Virus record (IMG/VR): IMGVR_UViG_3300020454_000048
Location: 1-30,352 of that record
Source: a virus
Strand: one strand, 5' to 3'
Length of the DNA stretch: 30,352 nt
The notes beneath the pieces were generated by a model that had not been told where the DNA came from, searched no databases, and saw only the letters and a list, made by a program, of their open reading frames with translations. A program made the translations under genes and the position numbers. Every line of letters begins with the position of its first letter. Position 1 is the first letter of the stretch. Below are positions 17,175-24,878 of this stretch, piece by piece.

Positions 17175-17566
17175 TAATCTTTACTAGCTTCGCCTTTAAA
17201 TGATTTGCTTGAACCTGATGTTCCTGCGTATAAACCAAACCAAGCAGCACCTGCACCTACAACAATAGATATAAGACCTGATTGTTCAAAACTTGGTGAT
17301 TCTAATGCCATAAACCAAAATGTCGTGTAGTAAAGTAAATACATATAAACACTTAAAAACATTCTTGGAAATATTCTCCAAGAGTCTACAGCTTGTGCTA
17401 GATGTATAACTTTTTGCCATGGATTAACATTAGTTGTATCTTCTAAATCTCTTATCTTATCTTTTAATTCTGATATTTCTTGAATCATAGCCATGAACTT
17501 ATTTAAGTCCATTTCTACTTCATTTCTATCCATATCTCCACCAAATCTACCTTGTCCGTCATTCAT
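17174..17566 (-). CDS. Holin candidate with two membrane helices
   Basis: The 130-residue protein has a polar, acidic, coiled-coil N-terminus (about 14-45; LNKFMAMIQEISELKDKIRD), a linker NPWQKVIHLAQAVDSWRIFP, then two hydrophobic helices at about 69-88 (FLSVYMYLLYYTTFWFMAL) and 95-115 (SGLISIVVGAGAAWFGLYAG) and a Ser/Lys-rich tail. I recall very similar proteins in marine phage lysis regions annotated as holins. Two helices, small size and position upstream of spanin and endolysin fit a holin, which would permeabilise the inner membrane so the endolysin can pass. The separation from the endolysin by about 6 kb of curli-type genes is unusual. Confidence 0.62.
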   Translation of the reverse strand: MNDGQGRFGGDMDRNEVEMDLNKFMAMIQEISELKDKIRDLEDTTNVNPWQKVIHLAQAVDSWRIFPRMFLSVYMYLLYYTTFWFMALESPSFEQSGLISIVVGAGAAWFGLYAGTSGSSKSFKGEASKD

Positions 17567-17946
17567 TAGTAATCACCCCATATTTTAGTTTTTTTACCAC
17601 CTTCATAAGTAACAGCATGACCCTCATCAATAAGCATTTGACAAATATCTTGACCATCTTGTGTATAAGGTATTCCTAATATACGACCATATTTACCTTT
17701 ACCTAAAGACTTAACTTTTAGATTACCTACACAAAGTTCTTTTAATCTTTCTTTAGCAGCAAGACCTAGTTTTTTTTCAGCTAAGTCTCTAGTACGACTT
17801 TCAGGAGTATCAATACCAGCAAGTCTTACACGCTGTTTATGTAGTTTTACATCAAATCCTAAATCAAGACAACAATCAAATGTATCTCCATCTACTATTC
17901 TTTCTAGTGTAGCGTTATATACAAACGCATCTGGTGCATTAGACAT
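17566..17946 (-). CDS. Thermonuclease-like (staphylococcal nuclease fold) nuclease
   Basis: The 126-residue protein shows the conserved core of the nuclease family: RIVDGDTFDC with Asp21, RVRLAGIDTPES with Arg41, Asp46 and Glu49, and GKYGRILG with Arg88. These match the calcium ligands and catalytic Arg/Glu/Arg of staphylococcal nuclease. No signal peptide is visible, so it should act in the cytoplasm, unlike many secreted bacterial relatives. Its start overlaps the stop of the basic protein upstream by one base. Likely roles are degrading host DNA for nucleotide recycling or attacking competing DNA. Small versions of this family are common in marine phages. Catalysis is inferred from intact residues. 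Confidence 0.88.
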   Translation of the reverse strand: MSNAPDAFVYNATLERIVDGDTFDCCLDLGFDVKLHKQRVRLAGIDTPESRTRDLAEKKLGLAAKERLKELCVGNLKVKSLGKGKYGRILGIPYTQDGQDICQMLIDEGHAVTYEGGKKTKIWGDY

Positions 17947-18182
17947 TATCTATAACTCCTTGTTTTTTTAGCTATTTTTTTTGGTTGTTTAACAAATTGT
18001 TTACCAGCTCTATTACCTTTAGCTTTTGCTCTATTAGTTGCAGCTTTTTCACTTTTTGTTAAAGATTTCCATGCTTTATCAGGTAAATATCTTCTTTTGC
18101 CTTTACTTGGTTTACCGCTTGAAGTACGCCACTTTTGTTTACCCCAATCTTTTAATGACCTTTGAGATTTTTTTAATGGCAT
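17946..18182 (-). CDS. Small very basic protein (DUF5872-like)
   Basis: The 78-residue protein is about one third Lys/Arg, with the core SLKDWGKQKWRTSSGKPSKG followed by RRYLPDKAWKSLTKSEKAATNRAKAKG. From memory this corresponds to a short domain of unknown function (DUF5872) found in phages and large DNA viruses. It probably binds nucleic acid by charge. It sits between a conserved phage protein of unknown function and the nuclease, coupled to both by one-base overlaps. It resembles the basic protein at 18869-19057 in composition. Function unknown. Confidence 0.68.
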   Translation of the reverse strand: MPLKKSQRSLKDWGKQKWRTSSGKPSKGKRRYLPDKAWKSLTKSEKAATNRAKAKGNRAGKQFVKQPKKIAKKTRSYR

Positions 18183-18868
18183 TATTCTTCCTCTATTTTT
18201 TCATTGTATAAATTATCAAATACTTGGTTTACATCTAAAGTGTAATCTAAATCAGATTTACTATAGTGAATATGTTGAGAAGGTTTAAAGTCTGGAGCAC
18301 CTTCTCCTAATTCAAATTGTGCAGGTCTTGTAACTCTTACTCTATTATTAGGTAAAGCAACTATATTGCCTGTCCATTTACCTGCATCTAATAATTCAAG
18401 AACATGATTTTGTTTATGTTGAGCAGGGTCATCTGCTGTATCAGATTCTGTATAATCTACAGTAAAGTAATACTTTGCAGGATAAAATTTACCATCAATT
18501 TTTGCCATCCAAGGACAAGGAGAACAATTTTCTAATACATATATACTATGTGTACGAGATGCACAATCCCAAGGTTGTGCTTCCCAAACTTCCATAGGTT
18601 CAGCCCATTCTTCAAAAGGGGTATCTCCAACAAGAGCTGTAATAGGCATCCTTGCCCACATAGCTCCACCATGAACATTTGGTTCATCTGTATCGTAAGT
18701 TTCTGCACCTGTAAAAATTACTTGGAATGATAGACAGCGTTTTTGAATTGTTGTAACTCCAATAACCATAGCGTGTAAAAATTCACCATGATATTTTTCG
18801 TGATTGTGTGTGTATTCTTTTCTAACCCAACACTTAAAATAAGGTATGCTGCTTTGCAAATAAGCCAT
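18182..18868 (-). CDS. Conserved phage protein of unknown function
   Basis: The 228-residue soluble protein begins MAYLQSSIPYFKCWVRKEYT and contains many aromatic and His/Cys residues (ENCSPCPWMAKIDGKFYPAK, WDCASRTHSIYVLE). I recognise it as a type that recurs in marine and cyanobacterial phage genomes, where it has no assigned function. There is no signal peptide or membrane segment. It starts directly after the stop of the small basic protein upstream and overlaps the next gene by one base. The two Cys-rich patches could bind a metal, but no standard zinc motif is seen. Confidence 0.66.
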   Translation of the reverse strand: MAYLQSSIPYFKCWVRKEYTHNHEKYHGEFLHAMVIGVTTIQKRCLSFQVIFTGAETYDTDEPNVHGGAMWARMPITALVGDTPFEEWAEPMEVWEAQPWDCASRTHSIYVLENCSPCPWMAKIDGKFYPAKYYFTVDYTESDTADDPAQHKQNHVLELLDAGKWTGNIVALPNNRVRVTRPAQFELGEGAPDFKPSQHIHYSKSDLDYTLDVNQVFDNLYNEKIEEE

Positions 18869-19486: not shown

Positions 19487-20029
19487 CTATAAAAAATTAA
19501 ACCACCCTGTAATAATATATTTTTCTTGATTTTTAGATATTTGTCCTCTATGAGCGTGTGTCCAACCCGCAGGAAAAATAATTGTTGAACCTTTTTTAGC
19601 TTTAGTAACACAATCTTGATATAAGAATTCTGTTCCTCCATTTTTAACATTGTTTAAATATGTGCTAAAAACCAAGTGTCTGTTTATAACACTAGGATTA
19701 CCATCGTTTTCTATATGCCATTTATAAAAACCCCATCCTTTATCATAATATTGTATTTTAGGACGGTGATTAATACCATAAAACTCTACATCATCTGCAA
19801 ATTTATATTTTGAAGTGTATTGTTTTAAACATTTTAATAATTCATTTTTATATAAAAGGTTTGTTAAATCTTCTGGAGCTATCATTATCTCTAATGATTT
19901 TTTTACTTTCTCATCTAACTTACCATTACCAACTCTACCATCTTCTGCGTTAGCTTTATTAACGTTCCAATAATTAATTAGTTCATCAACAGCTTCTTCA
20001 CTTATTTGATATTCGCCTATAAAGTTCAT
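19487..20029 (-). CDS. Fe(II)/2-oxoglutarate-dependent oxygenase, copy 3
   Basis: The 180-residue protein has the double-stranded beta-helix signature of the superfamily: GFYKWHIENDG supplies His105 and Glu107 (an HxE variant of HxD), and FPAGWTHAHRG supplies the distal His (158 or 160). Lys170 in EKYIITGW is a candidate for holding the 2-oxoglutarate carboxylate. GGTEFLYQD and the GSTIIFP strand are typical of small phage and prolyl-hydroxylase-like enzymes. The substrate is unknown. It overlaps copy 2 by four bases and is the last gene before the intergenic promoter-like site. Catalytic function is likely but the HxE and Lys choices are less common. Confidence 0.85.
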   Translation of the reverse strand: MNFIGEYQISEEAVDELINYWNVNKANAEDGRVGNGKLDEKVKKSLEIMIAPEDLTNLLYKNELLKCLKQYTSKYKFADDVEFYGINHRPKIQYYDKGWGFYKWHIENDGNPSVINRHLVFSTYLNNVKNGGTEFLYQDCVTKAKKGSTIIFPAGWTHAHRGQISKNQEKYIITGWFNFL

Positions 20030-20622
20030 TGTTTAAAATAAGCAGGTAAACCAATCATAGGTCTACCATCAAATTTATTTTGTTTAGCATCTTTACTACT
20101 TGCATCGTTGTAGTGTAAAAATACCTGCCCACAATCTTTACCTTCAAAAGGTTTTCTCCAATGTTCTACATCACAACCACGATACATTAACATATCCCCT
20201 TGGTTTAAATTTATTTCAATATCAGGTTCTAAATATATTGACCAATTATCACCACCTAAATTCAAAGTAGTAGATATTTCACAAGAGTATCTATCTTTAT
20301 GTCTTTTTAACTCATCACCATTTTTATAAATTCTTGCATAAGAATAAGTTTCAATTAGCTTTACACCTGATTCTTTTTCCATTATTGGCTTAACTTTTTG
20401 TAATAAAGTTTCCATAACTATATCAGCGTAATGTGAATAAGTTTCAGGTATTTGATTGTCATTCCAAACTCCAAAGTATTCAGTAAACTGTGATATATAT
20501 TTTTCATCAAACAAATATCTTGCTACATCTCTTTTATTTAAAAAATATTGATAACAAAAATCTGCTAGTTCTTTTGATATAGCACCTTTAATTACTTGGT
20601 ATTTATTTTTTTTAAAACTCAT
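20026..20622 (-). CDS. Fe(II)/2-oxoglutarate-dependent oxygenase, copy 2
   Basis: The 198-residue protein has the metal site His108-Lys-Asp110 (ELKRHKDRYSCEIS) and distal His154 (YRGCDVEHWRKPFEG) in a beta-helix core; INLNQGDMLMYRG precedes the distal His as in other family members. The final strand CGQVFLHYND lacks the usual Arg for 2-oxoglutarate, with Gln or another residue in its place. Its substrate may be a protein, a sugar or a nucleobase; sequence does not say. It overlaps copy 1 and copy 3 by four bases each, so all three are co-translated. Confidence 0.85.
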   Translation of the reverse strand: MSFKKNKYQVIKGAISKELADFCYQYFLNKRDVARYLFDEKYISQFTEYFGVWNDNQIPETYSHYADIVMETLLQKVKPIMEKESGVKLIETYSYARIYKNGDELKRHKDRYSCEISTTLNLGGDNWSIYLEPDIEINLNQGDMLMYRGCDVEHWRKPFEGKDCGQVFLHYNDASSKDAKQNKFDGRPMIGLPAYFKQ

Positions 20623-21239
20623 TTAAATGGGTATCCTAAATTCCAACACACTAAAGAGTGTCTTATACCTTTTGTTACAGGTTTAACTCTGTGCCAAACA
20701 AAAGAAGGAAAAACTATTACACTTCCTTTTTGTCTTATTTCCTCACATATTCTTGGTTGTGAGCCTTCATCTGTATTTCTAAAATCAAACTCTAAATCTC
20801 CACCTTTATATTCTTCAGGGTCAGTAAGTGATACAGTCATACTAAGTTTTCTTAGCTTACCATGTCTATTTGGGTTTTTTGGTTCGTCATAGGGTTCTCC
20901 AAATGAATCACAATGCCAATCATAAAACTGACCTTTTTTATACTCAGTAAATTGACAAGGCTCTGACCAATCCCATTCAAAATTCCAACCCGCATTTTCA
21001 TTTGCTTGATGTATGTAAGGTTGTATTTCGTTATATATCCATCTATCAGACATCCATACCACATCTGACTTTCTTTTCTTTTGAATGTTTTTAAGTTGTG
21101 CTTCTGTAAGTTTGTTTTTATTATTGTTTCCTGTAGTAGCCATTTGTTTATCTTGTTCTTTACCATAGCGTACTATATCATCGCATATTCTTTCAGGTAT
21201 AGCAGATTTAAAATACCAATAATACCATTTAAGATTCAT
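20619..21239 (-). CDS. Fe(II)/2-oxoglutarate-dependent oxygenase, PiuC/prolyl-4-hydroxylase-like, copy 1
   Basis: The 206-residue protein is the clearest of the three: QFTEYKKGQFYDWHCDSFG gives His109 and Asp111, GGDLEFDF is the conserved turn, and VFPSFVWHRVKPVTKGIRHS gives distal His183 and 2-oxoglutarate-binding Arg193. This pattern matches PKHD-type hydroxylases (PiuC-like) and the oxygenases common in cyanophages and other marine phages. The enzyme would hydroxylate an unidentified substrate using iron, oxygen and 2-oxoglutarate. It overlaps the sulfotransferase-like gene by eleven bases, so the two may modify the same target, perhaps a surface glycan or a virion protein. Confidence 0.92.
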   Translation of the reverse strand: MNLKWYYWYFKSAIPERICDDIVRYGKEQDKQMATTGNNNKNKLTEAQLKNIQKKRKSDVVWMSDRWIYNEIQPYIHQANENAGWNFEWDWSEPCQFTEYKKGQFYDWHCDSFGEPYDEPKNPNRHGKLRKLSMTVSLTDPEEYKGGDLEFDFRNTDEGSQPRICEEIRQKGSVIVFPSFVWHRVKPVTKGIRHSLVCWNLGYPFK

Positions 21240-22002
21240 ACTCTTTTCCTGTATTTTTATATTTTTCTATAACAGAAGGAAGTAAAAAATCTTCTATTGC
21301 ATATGGTTTTTTTTCTATTTTATCCGTTCTTATTGTATGTAAATCTACATCACCAAAAATAGAATCATCATATTTTATACCTTGTATTTCAAATTGTTTT
21401 AAGTTTTTAAAGTTATGTTCAAACTTAGGTATATTAAAAAAATTATAAACACTATTAACTGTACTTTGTGGGTTAGCAATTAACTGGTCGTATGTAATAA
21501 ATAAATGCTCATAGTTTTTCTGTATTAAAGGAATTTGTTTAATGGCATTTCCTAAAACACCTGTTTCTGGGTGCATAAAATAGTCTGCATCTGTTTCAAT
21601 ATTTTCTTTTTTGACTTTAAATGCTTTTAATAACGAAGCTAAACATTCTAGTGGGTTTCTATACAAAATTAAAAATTTAATTTTTTTATCAAAATACTTT
21701 TCTAATAATTCAAGGTTTCCGTCTGAACCCCAATTACACCTATTAATAACATATTTTGTTTTAAATGTTTCAGAATAAGTATAAAAAGTTTTTCTAATAA
21801 CATTGTCTAAAGACTCATTATGAGGAAAGTTTTGGTGTTGAGATAATGTTAAATCTTTTTGATTTTTAATTAAATCAAGCTGGTAAATAATTTCAGTAAG
21901 AGGACTATTAGCTGTAAAAGTTATATCTGTATTTTGATTTAAAATACTACCAAGTAAAGTATTACCTGCACGTTGTAAACTTATACAAAAATATAATTCC
22001 AT
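21229..22002 (-). CDS. Sulfotransferase-like enzyme
   Basis: The 257-residue protein shows both PAPS-binding elements of sulfotransferases: the 5'-phosphosulfate loop at the N-terminus (ISLQRAGNTLLGSIL, residues 7-21) and the 3'-phosphate motif FLILYRNPLECLASLLKAF with Arg115 and Ser123. FITYDQLIANPQSTVNSVYN is the typical helix near the C-terminal half. The first loop has Arg-Ala-Gly-Asn in place of the usual Arg-Ser-Gly-Thr/Ser, still compatible with phosphate binding. It should transfer sulfate from PAPS to an unidentified sugar, lipid or protein. It follows the glycine-rich adhesin gene by twelve bases, so virion fibre or host surface modification is plausible. Confidence 0.86.
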   Translation of the reverse strand: MELYFCISLQRAGNTLLGSILNQNTDITFTANSPLTEIIYQLDLIKNQKDLTLSQHQNFPHNESLDNVIRKTFYTYSETFKTKYVINRCNWGSDGNLELLEKYFDKKIKFLILYRNPLECLASLLKAFKVKKENIETDADYFMHPETGVLGNAIKQIPLIQKNYEHLFITYDQLIANPQSTVNSVYNFFNIPKFEHNFKNLKQFEIQGIKYDDSIFGDVDLHTIRTDKIEKKPYAIEDFLLPSVIEKYKNTGKEYES

Positions 22003-22014
22003 TAATAGGTTAAG

Positions 22015-23034
22015 TTAAATCCAATCGCCTTCTTTTTTTAATTCAAATACTCTTCTTAAATTCCAAACACTTGATGCAGCAAAATCACCGTTTGGGTCAT
22101 TAACAGCAACAAATCCTGAACCACCATTGCCACCCATTCTTGACGAAGATGCAGGACCATAAGCACCACCACCACCTCCGCCACCTTTATTAGTAGCACC
22201 AGCAGTTGATGCCAAATCAGATGCAGAGCCGCTTCCATATCCTGTTCCGCCAGTTCCTCCTGGTCCAGGAGCTCCTCCTTTGTCATTAGGAGCTGAAAGA
22301 TTGCTATCACCTGCTGCTCCTCCACCACCGTCTGCTCTAGCTACTGGAGAACCTGTAATAGAAGATGCTACACCTTGTCCGCCTCTACCTCCGATAACAT
22401 TATCAGGGTTTCCTTTTTGACCAGCTTCACCTGCTCCACCGCCACCTACAGCACAACCATAGTTTGAGTCTGGACTTCTAGCACCTCCACCTGGATAACC
22501 TTGATTAGCTGTTCCTGCACCCGCAGCACTTCCGTCAGGTTTATTACCAACACCATACCAAATACCAGAACCTCCGCCTGAGCCTCCATCTTGTCCAAGC
22601 TGACTACCACCAGCATTACCACTTGGATTAGTATAAGCAAACCTACTTCCGCCTGAGCCTCCGCCAGCAGAAGTTATGGGTCCAAAACTAGAATCTGCTC
22701 CAGGTCGCCATTCTCCATGTGCTCCTACAGCAACTCCCCCTGCTCCAACTACAACAGGTACTGTTGAGCCTGCGGTAACAGTTAAAGCTGATTCTGCGGA
22801 AGCTCCACCACCAGATGCTTCGCCTGGTGTAGATGACCTGTAACCACCAGCTCCTCCACCTCCGCCAAAAAAACCTCCTGCTCCACCACCAGCAACTACT
22901 AAATAAGTTACTGAGGTTGTTTTAGAAGGTACTGCATAGTTTGTACTACTGTTAAAAGATGTTACTTTTGCTGAAAAAACTGGTTCATGGTCTGCTCCAA
23001 TTAATTGACTTCTTTGATTTCTTGTAATAGGCAT
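22015..23034 (-). CDS. Glycine-rich tail fibre / receptor-binding adhesin
   Basis: The start at 23034 (MPITRNQRSQLIGADHEPVF) is chosen over 23079 because GGAG precedes it and it follows the upstream stop by four bases. A short N-terminal region is followed by a beta-strand VTYLVVAGGGAGG and then about 230 residues dominated by Gly, Ser and Ala with GGGGAGG-type runs, ending in a distinct tail (SSVWNLRRVFELKKEGDWI). Such glycine-rich domains fold as polyglycine-II bundles in phage adhesins such as T4-type gp38 and bind host receptors. Its position after the other fibre genes supports a tip adhesin. The C-terminal tail is probably the trimerising or attachment part; that is inference. Confidence 0.8.
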   Translation of the reverse strand: MPITRNQRSQLIGADHEPVFSAKVTSFNSSTNYAVPSKTTSVTYLVVAGGGAGGFFGGGGGAGGYRSSTPGEASGGGASAESALTVTAGSTVPVVVGAGGVAVGAHGEWRPGADSSFGPITSAGGGSGGSRFAYTNPSGNAGGSQLGQDGGSGGGSGIWYGVGNKPDGSAAGAGTANQGYPGGGARSPDSNYGCAVGGGGAGEAGQKGNPDNVIGGRGGQGVASSITGSPVARADGGGGAAGDSNLSAPNDKGGAPGPGGTGGTGYGSGSASDLASTAGATNKGGGGGGGAYGPASSSRMGGNGGSGFVAVNDPNGDFAASSVWNLRRVFELKKEGDWI

Positions 23035-23038
23035 AATA

Positions 23039-23500
23039 TTAAATCTCCGTCCATTGTAAATTAGTAGCATCCCAAACATAATCAGTTTCTGTTACTGGAT
23101 TAGTACTTTCGTCAAATGTTTTACCTATCCATCTTAAGTTAGCTTCATCCCATCCTGCATTAGCTCTAAGACCACTTATATCTGTTTTATTTGGAAAAGT
23201 TACTGGAGCCTGCCAATCGTCATTTGAATCTAAAGACCAAGATGAAAATTGTTGAGGTTGTAAAAATTTATCTTTAGAGCTATCATAAATATAATCAATA
23301 CCACAGTATTGTTTTCTAAAATTATTGTTATAAGAAGTTTGTTTCCAAGCAACGCCATTTTCTGAATATGGAACAATAGACGCTACAAATGTTTCTGCGT
23401 CTGCGTGTAAATCGCCACCATTAGCATCTACATCCTCGTTGGATATTACTACTACTCGTATTACTTTATTATCGCTATCAAGTTCTGCAAAGTGAGCCAT
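23039..23500 (-). CDS. Tail-fibre-associated conserved phage protein
   Basis: The 153-residue protein begins MAHFAELDSDNKVIRVVVIS and contains WKQTSYNNNFRKQYCGIDYI, patterns that I recognise from a conserved family of cyanophage and other marine phage proteins usually found near fibre genes. The C-terminus has two Trp-rich repeats (RWIGKTFDES and VWDATNLQWTEI), as in fibre modules. It lies between a small beta protein and the glycine-rich adhesin and is probably part of the fibre or its assembly. No enzyme motif is visible. Confidence 0.68.
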   Translation of the reverse strand: MAHFAELDSDNKVIRVVVISNEDVDANGGDLHADAETFVASIVPYSENGVAWKQTSYNNNFRKQYCGIDYIYDSSKDKFLQPQQFSSWSLDSNDDWQAPVTFPNKTDISGLRANAGWDEANLRWIGKTFDESTNPVTETDYVWDATNLQWTEI

Positions 23501-23511
23501 CTTCTAACTCC

Positions 23512-23877
23512 TTAAGCATCGTCTAAGATTTCACCAGATACTGTGTATTCTAAATCATTATTAGCACTACCCTGTATTTTCAATATATCTGTTTCATCTA
23601 AGTAAAATGAAGAGTTTTTATCTGTAACTATTAGAGTTGAATCTGCTGGTACTGCAACTGTTGATGCAATTGCATGAGAAGTTGAGCCATTATCATTTGA
23701 AATTGAAATAGTTACAGTAGCTGAATTAGTACCATCTATATTTGCAATTATTATTGTGTTTACTTTATGTAGTTTATCGGCAGCTACATCTATAATGTCT
23801 TGATTTGAAGTTGTAACTGCACCATTAATTGTGAATGGTAAAATGGATGTTACGTTTACTATATTTACTGATGCCAT
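23512..23877 (-). CDS. Small beta-rich structural protein
   Basis: The 121-residue protein (MASVNIVNVTSILPFTINGA) is made of alternating hydrophobic and Thr/Ser/Asn residues (VNTIIIANIDGTNSATVTIS, STLIVTDKNSSFYLDETDIL), suggesting a beta-sandwich like many virion decoration or fibre domains. Its composition is close to the proteins at 8114-8455 and 29020-29427. It sits in the fibre cluster. The exact role is unknown. Confidence 0.62.
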   Translation of the reverse strand: MASVNIVNVTSILPFTINGAVTTSNQDIIDVAADKLHKVNTIIIANIDGTNSATVTISISNDNGSTSHAIASTVAVPADSTLIVTDKNSSFYLDETDILKIQGSANNDLEYTVSGEILDDA

Positions 23878-23891
23878 TGTTGTCTCCTATG

Positions 23892-24878
23892 TTATCCGAA
23901 TACAATAGCCATGGCAATGGCTTTACCTGTTGAGGTTTTTGTATCAAGTTGGGTTTGTATGTTGGAAGTTACTCCATCACTAAAATTAAGTTCTGCTGCT
24001 GTTGAAGTAATAGTGGTACTCGCAATAGATAAAGCGTCTGTTTCTAATGTACCATCTATATCTACATCTCCTGATATATCTAAACTAGCTGCTGTTATTT
24101 CACCACCAACTGTAAGTGTAGTAGCCATATCAACCGCACCATCTATATCTACTACATCTAAATTAGTAGTTCCATCTACATCTATATCTCCTGAAATATC
24201 TAAAGCTGTGCCAATTAAAGTTTGTGTTAATGTTATTTGACCATTAGCAGCAATAGTCATAGCATCTACATCTGAAGCAGAGCCTATAGTTTTACCATCG
24301 CCAATAATAATATCATCACTAAAAGTAGCTGTTTGTGCAAAAGTAACACCTCCACCATCAGCTATGGTCATGGCATCATCTCCATCAGTATATTCTATTA
24401 AGGGGGTTTGAATTGAAGAGCTGGTTTCAATAATACCACTTGTTTGTAAATTTAAAGTAGCAAAAGCATCTACCATAGCTCCGCCAGAACCAGCACCATC
24501 AGAATAAATAACTTTAGTCTTACCTGAAGGTATAGTAACTGTGGCTCCACTACCTTGTTTAATTATTATAGATTGAGAACCACTTGTTCCATTTTCTATA
24601 ATCCATAGTTTAGATACTGTATTTGGTCCTATAGTAATAGTACAGGTAGAATCTAATGTACCTGTATATTTTAAGAATATAGACCTACCTGGGTCTGTTG
24701 CTCCATCTGCTATTGTAGTTGTGTGGGTATCAGCATTAGTTGTAATACCTTCTGTGCCATAACTAAAAGCTTCTGCTATTAATTCAAGATTTGTATTTGT
24801 AGTATCACCCCATGTTCCACTAGCATCGCCAGTAGCCATTTCGTTTAATCTTAAATCATTTACATATGAACTTGCCAT
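23892..24878 (-). CDS. Tail fibre protein with beta-helical repeats
   Basis: The 328-residue protein begins MASSYVNDLRLNEMATGDAS, a lead I recall at the start of marine phage fibre proteins, followed by a beta domain and then repeats of the LDISGDIDVDGTTNLDVVDI type (about 225-280). These form extended trimeric beta fibres. It ends with TITSTAAELNFSDGVTSNIQ and then TQLDTKTSTG, a segment common just before the C-terminus of such fibres. It is translated after a 19-base gap from the repeat protein upstream and probably forms the shaft that carries the adhesin. Host-range function is inferred. Confidence 0.8.
   Translation of the reverse strand: MASSYVNDLRLNEMATGDASGTWGDTTNTNLELIAEAFSYGTEGITTNADTHTTTIADGATDPGRSIFLKYTGTLDSTCTITIGPNTVSKLWIIENGTSGSQSIIIKQGSGATVTIPSGKTKVIYSDGAGSGGAMVDAFATLNLQTSGIIETSSSIQTPLIEYTDGDDAMTIADGGGVTFAQTATFSDDIIIGDGKTIGSASDVDAMTIAANGQITLTQTLIGTALDISGDIDVDGTTNLDVVDIDGAVDMATTLTVGGEITAASLDISGDVDIDGTLETDALSIASTTITSTAAELNFSDGVTSNIQTQLDTKTSTGKAIAMAIVFG

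Follow-up and report, generated by a model that had tools for sequence, protein, structure and literature searches.

Gene layout of the cassette

The DNA analysed here (the window) spans 30,352 bases and corresponds to a single IMG/VR virus record (IMGVR_UViG_3300020454_000048), probably a fragment of a virus genome. Its nearest isolates at the DNA level are SAR11 phages (HTVC033P, HTVC023P, HTVC027P and others), and a SAR11-type host is therefore likely. On the minus strand, positions 19487–22002 hold four open reading frames for modifying enzymes: a sulfotransferase (S, 21229..22002, 257 residues), two 2-oxoglutarate (2OG)-Fe(II) oxygenases (OxA, 20619..21239, 206 residues; OxC, 19487..20029, 180 residues) and, between these two, a protein with the predicted fold of such oxygenases (OxB, 20026..20622, 198 residues). 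Neighbouring genes overlap by 11 nt (S/OxA), 4 nt (OxA/OxB) and 4 nt (OxB/OxC), and S begins 12 nt after the end of a glycine-rich gene (Gly), so that the first-pass annotation of four coupled modifying enzymes directly behind an adhesin gene holds in its coordinates, overlaps and spacing.

Gly (22015..23079, minus strand, 354 residues as listed) encodes a putative adhesin or receptor-binding protein with matches to PF21722 (4.3e-8) and to phrog_863, tail fiber assembly (1.9e-5). Its true start is likely Met16 (23034), because in many relatives Gly starts after the stop codon of the preceding gene. This gene, U153 (23039..23500, minus strand; phrog_7759, 9e-32), encodes a small fibre partner found with the cassette in different types of phage.

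The sulfotransferase

S matches the Pfam families Sulfotransfer_1 (8.6e-12) and Sulfotransfer_3. Five residues are invariant in 17 of 17 aligned sequences: Arg11, Gly13 and Thr15 in residues 9–16 (21955..21978), and Arg115 and Ser123 in residues 114–123 (21634..21663). We take these segments to be the counterparts of the 5' loop and the 3'-phosphate-binding motif for the sulfate donor 3'-phosphoadenosine 5'-phosphosulfate (PAPS). With the Pfam matches and the predicted fold, they place S among the PAPS-dependent sulfotransferases. Structures were predicted with AlphaFold2 (AF2) from alignments of 15 and 16 sequences taken only from the window and IMG/VR loci; the model of S has a predicted local distance difference test score (pLDDT) of 83.

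The closest folds in the PDB to this model are the tyrosylprotein sulfotransferases TPST1 and TPST2 (Z 15.4–15.8 over 229–237 aligned residues), tied with the cyanobacterial olefin-synthase sulfotransferase 4gox (15.3) and followed by the heparan sulfate enzymes (about 13). The PAPS-type motif residues are conserved between S and the TPSTs; overall identity is 12–15%. Profile comparison with the PDB likewise returned TPST1 (5e-10 to 8e-10) together with polyketide- and olefin-synthase sulfotransferases (4e-10 to 1e-9). At 1e-5, only six of 50,697 phage records contain a relative of S, none of them from SAR11 isolates, and IMG/VR yielded 37 closer loci (81–100%) and two distant ones.

OxA and OxC

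OxA belongs to phrog_61 and PF13640 (2OG-FeII_Oxy_3, 1.6e-15), above cut-off. Its HxD...H...R pattern comprises the metal motif His109-Cys110-Asp111 (20907..20915), the distal His183 and the 2OG anchor Arg193, and all 32 relatives aligned, the most divergent at 48% identity, retain these histidines, Asp111 and Arg193. With both the metal triad and the R/K anchor, OxA qualifies as a member of the 2OG-Fe(II) oxygenase superfamily. The nearest solved structures by profile are PKHD-type hydroxylases (2e-8, PDB profile search), but the score against the NCBIfam equivalog for these enzymes, 57.6 bits, is far below its cut-off of 143.

OxC is likewise assigned to phrog_61 and PF13640 (1.5e-9), above cut-off, and to the same superfamily by its metal triad and R/K anchor, in an HxE...H...K pattern with the metal motif His105-Ile106-Glu107 (19709..19717). 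His105, Glu107, His160 and Lys170 are invariant in 13 of 13 sequences, including homologues at 39–43% identity, so that the HxE motif is a fixed trait rather than a lesion. Its nearest PDB structure by profile is a prolyl 4-hydroxylase (P4H; 2.6e-8). The motif of prolyl 4-hydroxylases is HxD...H...K, from which OxC departs in its HxE in 13 of 13 sequences; the distal His and the Lys are present. OxC also matches phrog_2297, named 'DNA endonuclease', a label that is judged doubtful for it.

The three proteins are only distantly alike and differ in metal motif (HxD, HxD and HxE), as the first-pass annotation had noted. OxA and OxB give no significant BLASTP match (E 1.7), OxA and OxC match at E 6e-5, and profile comparison joins OxA to OxC with 95.6% probability and finds no match of OxB to either. 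Each metal site is invariant in its own alignment (32/32, 20/20 and 13/13 for OxA, OxB and OxC), with no sign of inactive sites.

OxB and the name 'ferrochelatase'

OxB matches phrog_2954, named 'ferrochelatase', at 2.2e-51. It gave no oxygenase match in Pfam or NCBIfam, and a PDB profile search with OxB, as with the inserted gene X1 described below, returned nothing useful. The AF2 model (pLDDT 84.3, predicted template modelling score 0.84) has a double-stranded beta-helix fold. The best Foldseek match among 489 at E ≤ 0.001 is a prolyl 4-hydroxylase from P. putida (2.4e-8), followed by PHD2. In the VIA comparison the top Z scores are about 15–16, the epimerase SnoN scoring level with P4H and PHD2 among the top rows, and the list also contains ALKBH5 (Z 14.7). 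The metal motif His108-Lys109-Asp110 (20293..20301) is completed by the distal His154, and His108, Asp110 and His154 are invariant in 20 of 20 aligned relatives. Predicted fold and HxD...H triad thus identify OxB as 2OG-oxygenase-like despite its PHROG name.

No ferrochelatase family in Pfam or NCBIfam matches OxB, and none in Pfam matches HTVC033P gp58 or Mosig_00059, both annotated 'putative ferrochelatase'. Ferrochelatases are missing from the 50 best rows of either fold list, an absence that is no test in itself, though the match to 2OG oxygenases is strong. By predicted fold, metal motif and family searches, a ferrochelatase identity for OxB is rejected. The phrog_2954 members examined (window 20026–20622; L119:15481–16125; L122:5208–5978) look like 2OG oxygenases, and the name 'ferrochelatase' spreads from this family through phage annotation and ecological papers.

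Conservation of the cassette in related loci

Related loci were collected with U153, an oxygenase-free query, and with OxB. The best 80 of at least 600 matches were taken in each scan, so the counts describe close relatives, and the loci share ancestry. Of the 61 U153-fetched loci in which 2.5 kb or more is visible downstream, 60 have OxA, the exception being L164 (about 3.7 kb seen), 53 have OxB and 10 have S; with at least 4 kb downstream the figures are 40, 39 and 8 of 40. Conversely, OxA precedes OxB in all 66 OxB-fetched loci with at least 1.5 kb upstream, and where at least 3.5 kb upstream is visible, Gly is found in 37 of 37 and U153 in 36 of 37. S lies immediately before OxA in 40 of 40 S-positive loci (with the 11-nt overlap in 37) and immediately after Gly in all 38 in which that side is visible. 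The genes are therefore neither single nor randomly placed: OxA and OxB form a near-constant pair behind the adhesin, and S has one fixed place.

Around this pair the gene content varies. A tree of OxA was built from 140 loci, after removal of 17 duplicates (16 repeat contigs and the window's own record, L124), the references L119–L123 and OxA sequences shorter than 195 residues. Among the 127 of these loci in which OxB is visible there are 15 cassette arrangements, with the oxygenase-like genes X1, X6, X7 and X12 inserted either within the OxA-OxB pair or behind OxB. X6 and X12 match PF13759. X1 and X7 have no oxygenase match in Pfam, and their description as oxygenase-like is based solely on motifs resembling metal sites and on gene context; in X1, His113, Asp115, His163 and Arg174 are kept in 18 of 18 sequences. 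Mosig_00058 (L122:4696–5208) carries the annotation 'putative DNA endonuclease V'; it can be aligned with the X1 family and has the HxD...H...R pattern, and this alignment makes the endonuclease label doubtful. The fewest changes required on the OxA tree are 21 for X1, nine for X7, seven for X6, six for S and three for OxC. Variable insertions beside a constant OxA-OxB pair describe a core pair with replaceable parts.

Many S-negative relatives (L041, L042, L054, L069 and others) carry two tandem glycine-rich genes before OxA, and most S-positive loci of the main group a single one.

S and the type of adhesin

The adhesin genes at this locus are hypervariable. They were compared in the 123 of the 140 tree loci that have an adhesin of more than 250 residues upstream and a known S status. 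At an OxA similarity of 0.85–0.90, the median adhesin similarity is 0.70 for pairs of S-positive loci (278 pairs), 0.27 for mixed pairs (1365) and 0.28 for pairs of S-negative loci (670). In L079, OxA is nearest to that of an S-negative relative, but the adhesin and S are those of the main S-positive group, so that here both genes were replaced together in an S-negative setting. By these comparisons, S travels largely with one type of adhesin. Four adhesin tyrosines, Tyr175, Tyr207, Tyr281 and Tyr307, are conserved without exception in the 29 S-positive adhesins of the main group and in L079, and are absent from the two S-negative adhesins compared; they are candidates only for sulfation.

Occurrence in other phages and earlier work

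Among the 50,697 phage records, 344 have OxA-like, 156 OxB-like and 380 OxC-like genes. A U153 homologue occurs in 29 records, and 14 of these phages were examined. OxA, OxB and U153 are found together in the cyanomyoviruses S-SSM5, P-RSM4, S-MS29 and S-CAM8, and U153 is also close to oxygenases in HTVC033P, HTVC023P, HTVC008M and DSL-LC04, a total of eight of the 14 isolates. In most cases U153 lies directly behind a fibre gene, glycine-rich or of another kind. In HTVC023P and HTVC033P the arrangement is OxA-X6-OxB.

Parts of this gene set have been described before, in papers that were available in excerpt and to which the following statements apply to that extent. Wittmers et al. (2022) described HTVC023P-type phages in which 2OG oxygenases and 'ferrochelatases' lie together, the ferrochelatase always with a neighbouring oxygenase (PMC9599517), and a time series of 2024 lists phrog61 and phrog2954 as seasonal potential auxiliary metabolic genes (AMGs; PMC11561400). 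The families are those of the window (OxA in phrog_61, OxB in phrog_2954), whereas in the excerpts of both papers 'ferrochelatase' is taken at face value, the genes are treated as AMGs and are not tied to the adhesin; the main text of PMC9599517 nowhere uses the word 'sulfotransferase'. In T4-like cyanophages, for which the 2OG gene set T4-GC 412/615/616/619 has been defined, OxA (GC412), OxB (GC615, 'ferrochelatase') and U153 (GC616) adjoin in S-SSM5 and P-RSM4 (PMC3037559). These phages differ from the window in that there is no adjoining Gly-S pair and the oxygenases further downstream are others, one of them annotated 'leprecan-like'. In a study of OM43 phages, some genomes were found to contain a sulfotransferase gene and 2OG genes, and the role of the former was described as unclear (PMC10580990).

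In the open-licence PMC literature, as far as its text was available, searches found neither a revised reading of phrog_2954 nor a cassette linked to an adhesin. A phrase search for phage or viral sulfotransferases gave no paper, and none of the papers listed dealt with tyrosine sulfation in connection with phage tail fibres or with a phage tail prolyl hydroxylase. The co-location of oxygenases and 'ferrochelatases' is thus already published, and what the present analysis adds is the fold correction for phrog_2954, the linkage to the adhesin and the sulfotransferase.

Upstream of U153, on the minus strand as well, the conserved block begins with a putative fibre gene, U328 (23892..24878; phrog_31104, 5e-14), and contains U121 (23512..23877), conserved in relatives' loci. 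Elsewhere in the window, a 228-residue protein (18182–18868) matches phrog_3704, 'ferredoxin' (3.1e-28), a name that may be unreliable, and a small nuclease-like protein (X2, 17566–17946), of staphylococcal-nuclease type by eye, is conserved 3' of the cassette in many relatives.

Supply of the sulfate donor

The SAR11 strain HTCC1062 lacks cysDNCHIJ and sat, according to the accessible part of PMC5069961. We surveyed 147 sampled genomes, of unstated completeness, from the order of a Pelagibacter metagenome-assembled genome (MAG). Adenosine 5'-phosphosulfate (APS) kinase was counted where the match spans at least 140 of 152 positions, which is the case in 24 of 147 genomes (121 at E 0.001); weaker partial matches were set aside because they are probably other kinases. 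Strong CysD-like matches (>170 bits) occur in nine of 147 (unfiltered, 112) and ATP sulfurylase in seven, and 11 genomes have both members of a CysD-CysNC or Sat-ApsK pair.

Among genome contigs, S turned up in just one, which belongs to the Pelagibacter MAG MED605. In this MAG, genes for ATP sulfurylase and APS kinase lie in a single cluster (L204:2451–5461, G001:C11), and no PAPS reductase family match was found. The cluster further contains GDP-mannose dehydratase-like, asparagine synthase and phosphoenolpyruvate mutase genes. From this gene content it is possible that the cluster supplies PAPS for surface sulfation, but MED605 is a lead only, since binning may have joined unlike contigs. 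PAPS made by the phages themselves was considered and rejected: no APS kinase was found in 13 of 13 S-positive records (the window and 12 others, all of which may be fragments).

Interpretation

We propose, with a probability of about one half, that the locus is a modular cassette for hydroxylation, and in some phages also sulfation, of the adhesin or its partner. It would be a protein-tailoring module attached to the receptor-binding locus. OxA and OxB would be its constant core, probably hydroxylating side chains of a neighbouring tail protein, either the glycine-rich adhesin or U153. The other enzymes (OxC in the window, X1, X6, X7 and X12 in relatives, and the PAPS-dependent S) would be optional additions matched to the adhesin variant. 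The window phage would then carry an adhesin whose residues are hydroxylated and which bears sulfate esters, on tyrosines for instance, and the modification may alter receptor binding or stability. The gene content and overlaps, the conserved metal and PAPS-type sites, the predicted oxygenase fold of OxB, the fixed position behind the adhesin and the bias of S to one adhesin type are observed. That the enzymes are active, that a protein is the substrate, which protein and residues are modified and with what benefit, we infer. Kinship of the enzymes points towards protein hydroxylation and sulfation: prokaryotic P4H and PKHD-type hydroxylases resemble OxB in predicted fold (with PHD2), OxC by profile (P4H) and OxA by profile (PKHD), and S resembles the TPSTs in modelled fold.

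Several observations weigh against this proposal. Adjacency is no proof of a substrate, as adjacent genes can be co-inherited. Six of the 14 isolates examined (ct2KA10, Greip, Bellamy, HTVC025P, CRP-207 and CRP-143) have U153 but no oxygenase-family member in the 6.8 to 12.4 kb inspected. The catalytic Glu after the 5' loop of TPST2, which we take to be Glu99, has no counterpart in S, where the profile alignment places Ala31/Asn32. In the P4H/PHD clade, an Arg or Lys about 10–12 residues past the distal His anchors 2OG, and other clades anchor it elsewhere; OxB is without this residue and has an invariant Gln166 at the site, and may bind 2OG in another way or not at all. L129 and L138 have an S about 70% like that of the window, with an unlike adhesin (0.31) that is without the four tyrosines, which contradicts a strict coupling of S to the adhesin. 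Among S-positive pairs, moreover, the adhesin is tied to U153 as strongly as to S (partial rank r, given OxA, of 0.47 and 0.48 respectively). OxC accompanies S in 25 of 32 S-positive loci and in one of 41 S-negative loci, an association that is not significant on the tree. As this amounts to two or three independent pairs, and as HTVC008M has an OxC homologue and no S in its cassette, a fixed S-OxC unit is unsupported. Finally, the supply of PAPS in SAR11 is doubtful.

The first-pass annotation had suggested that the enzymes act in sequence on one target such as a virion fibre, host glycan or lipid. Of these targets the fibre fits the context best, given the adhesin/U153 locus and the bias of S; a strict ordered pathway on a single target is unlikely, because S, OxC and the other oxygenases have been gained and lost separately.

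The enzymes might instead remodel the host surface, S sulfating and the oxygenases hydroxylating lipopolysaccharide, capsule or lipid, for instance against superinfection; their place beside the adhesin would then reflect a receptor that concerns both. SAR11 myophages have glycosyltransferases thought to change the surface in their host-recognition regions (PMC7029224, in the excerpt available), the MAG with the S cassette contig has its sulfurylase and kinase in a cluster resembling one for surface polysaccharide, and S is structurally near heparan sulfate sulfotransferases (Z about 13). We nevertheless consider this unlikely, since the best structural matches of S are the TPSTs (Z 15.4–15.8), searches of Pfam and PHROGs found no glycosyltransferase among the window's cassette genes, and the OxA-OxB pair persists although adhesins and hosts differ greatly. 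It is less likely still that the block is selfish or neutral, held in a recombination hotspot of the tail-fibre region with no action on fibres. The hypervariable adhesins and the equal coupling of adhesin to U153 and to S would agree with plain linkage, whereas the metal sites are kept down to 33–48% identity, the short overlaps are kept too, and the unit is common to podo- and myoviruses.

A metabolic role, in which the oxygenases would consume 2-oxoglutarate or modify small metabolites and their genome position would be incidental, follows the 2OG/nitrogen role that Sullivan et al. (2010) proposed for cyanophages (PMC3037559) and the AMG reading of the pelagiphage papers (PMC9599517, PMC11561400), as their excerpts give it. 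It appears improbable to us, as it leaves up to four divergent oxygenases per tail locus, the near-constant linkage to the adhesin and the bias of S unexplained. In other systems, 2OG oxygenases modify or repair nucleic acid, and ALKBH5 in the fold list of OxB would be in keeping with a TET/JBP- or AlkB-like function; with most of the nearest matches being protein hydroxylases and the genes lying in a tail-fibre locus, we rate this as very improbable, and we know of no role of sulfotransferases on DNA.

An extended form of the tailoring proposal is speculative and rather unlikely. Several marine phage families may build a chemically modified adhesin by means of interchangeable oxygenases with or without S, with Tyr175, Tyr207, Tyr281 and Tyr307 sulfated where S is present. 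Specificity would evolve by enzyme swaps as well as by adhesin mutation, and S-positive phages would be limited to SAR11 lineages that make PAPS without sulfate assimilation.

The enzyme families concerned are common in phages of SAR11 and of marine cyanobacteria and have so far been taken as metabolic, including the 'ferrochelatase' that is said to mark seasonal viruses. If OxB is an oxygenase acting on tail proteins, their interpretation would shift from host metabolism to host recognition. The cassette thus offers a testable idea of how phages may diversify their adhesins chemically, and raises the question of PAPS in SAR11.

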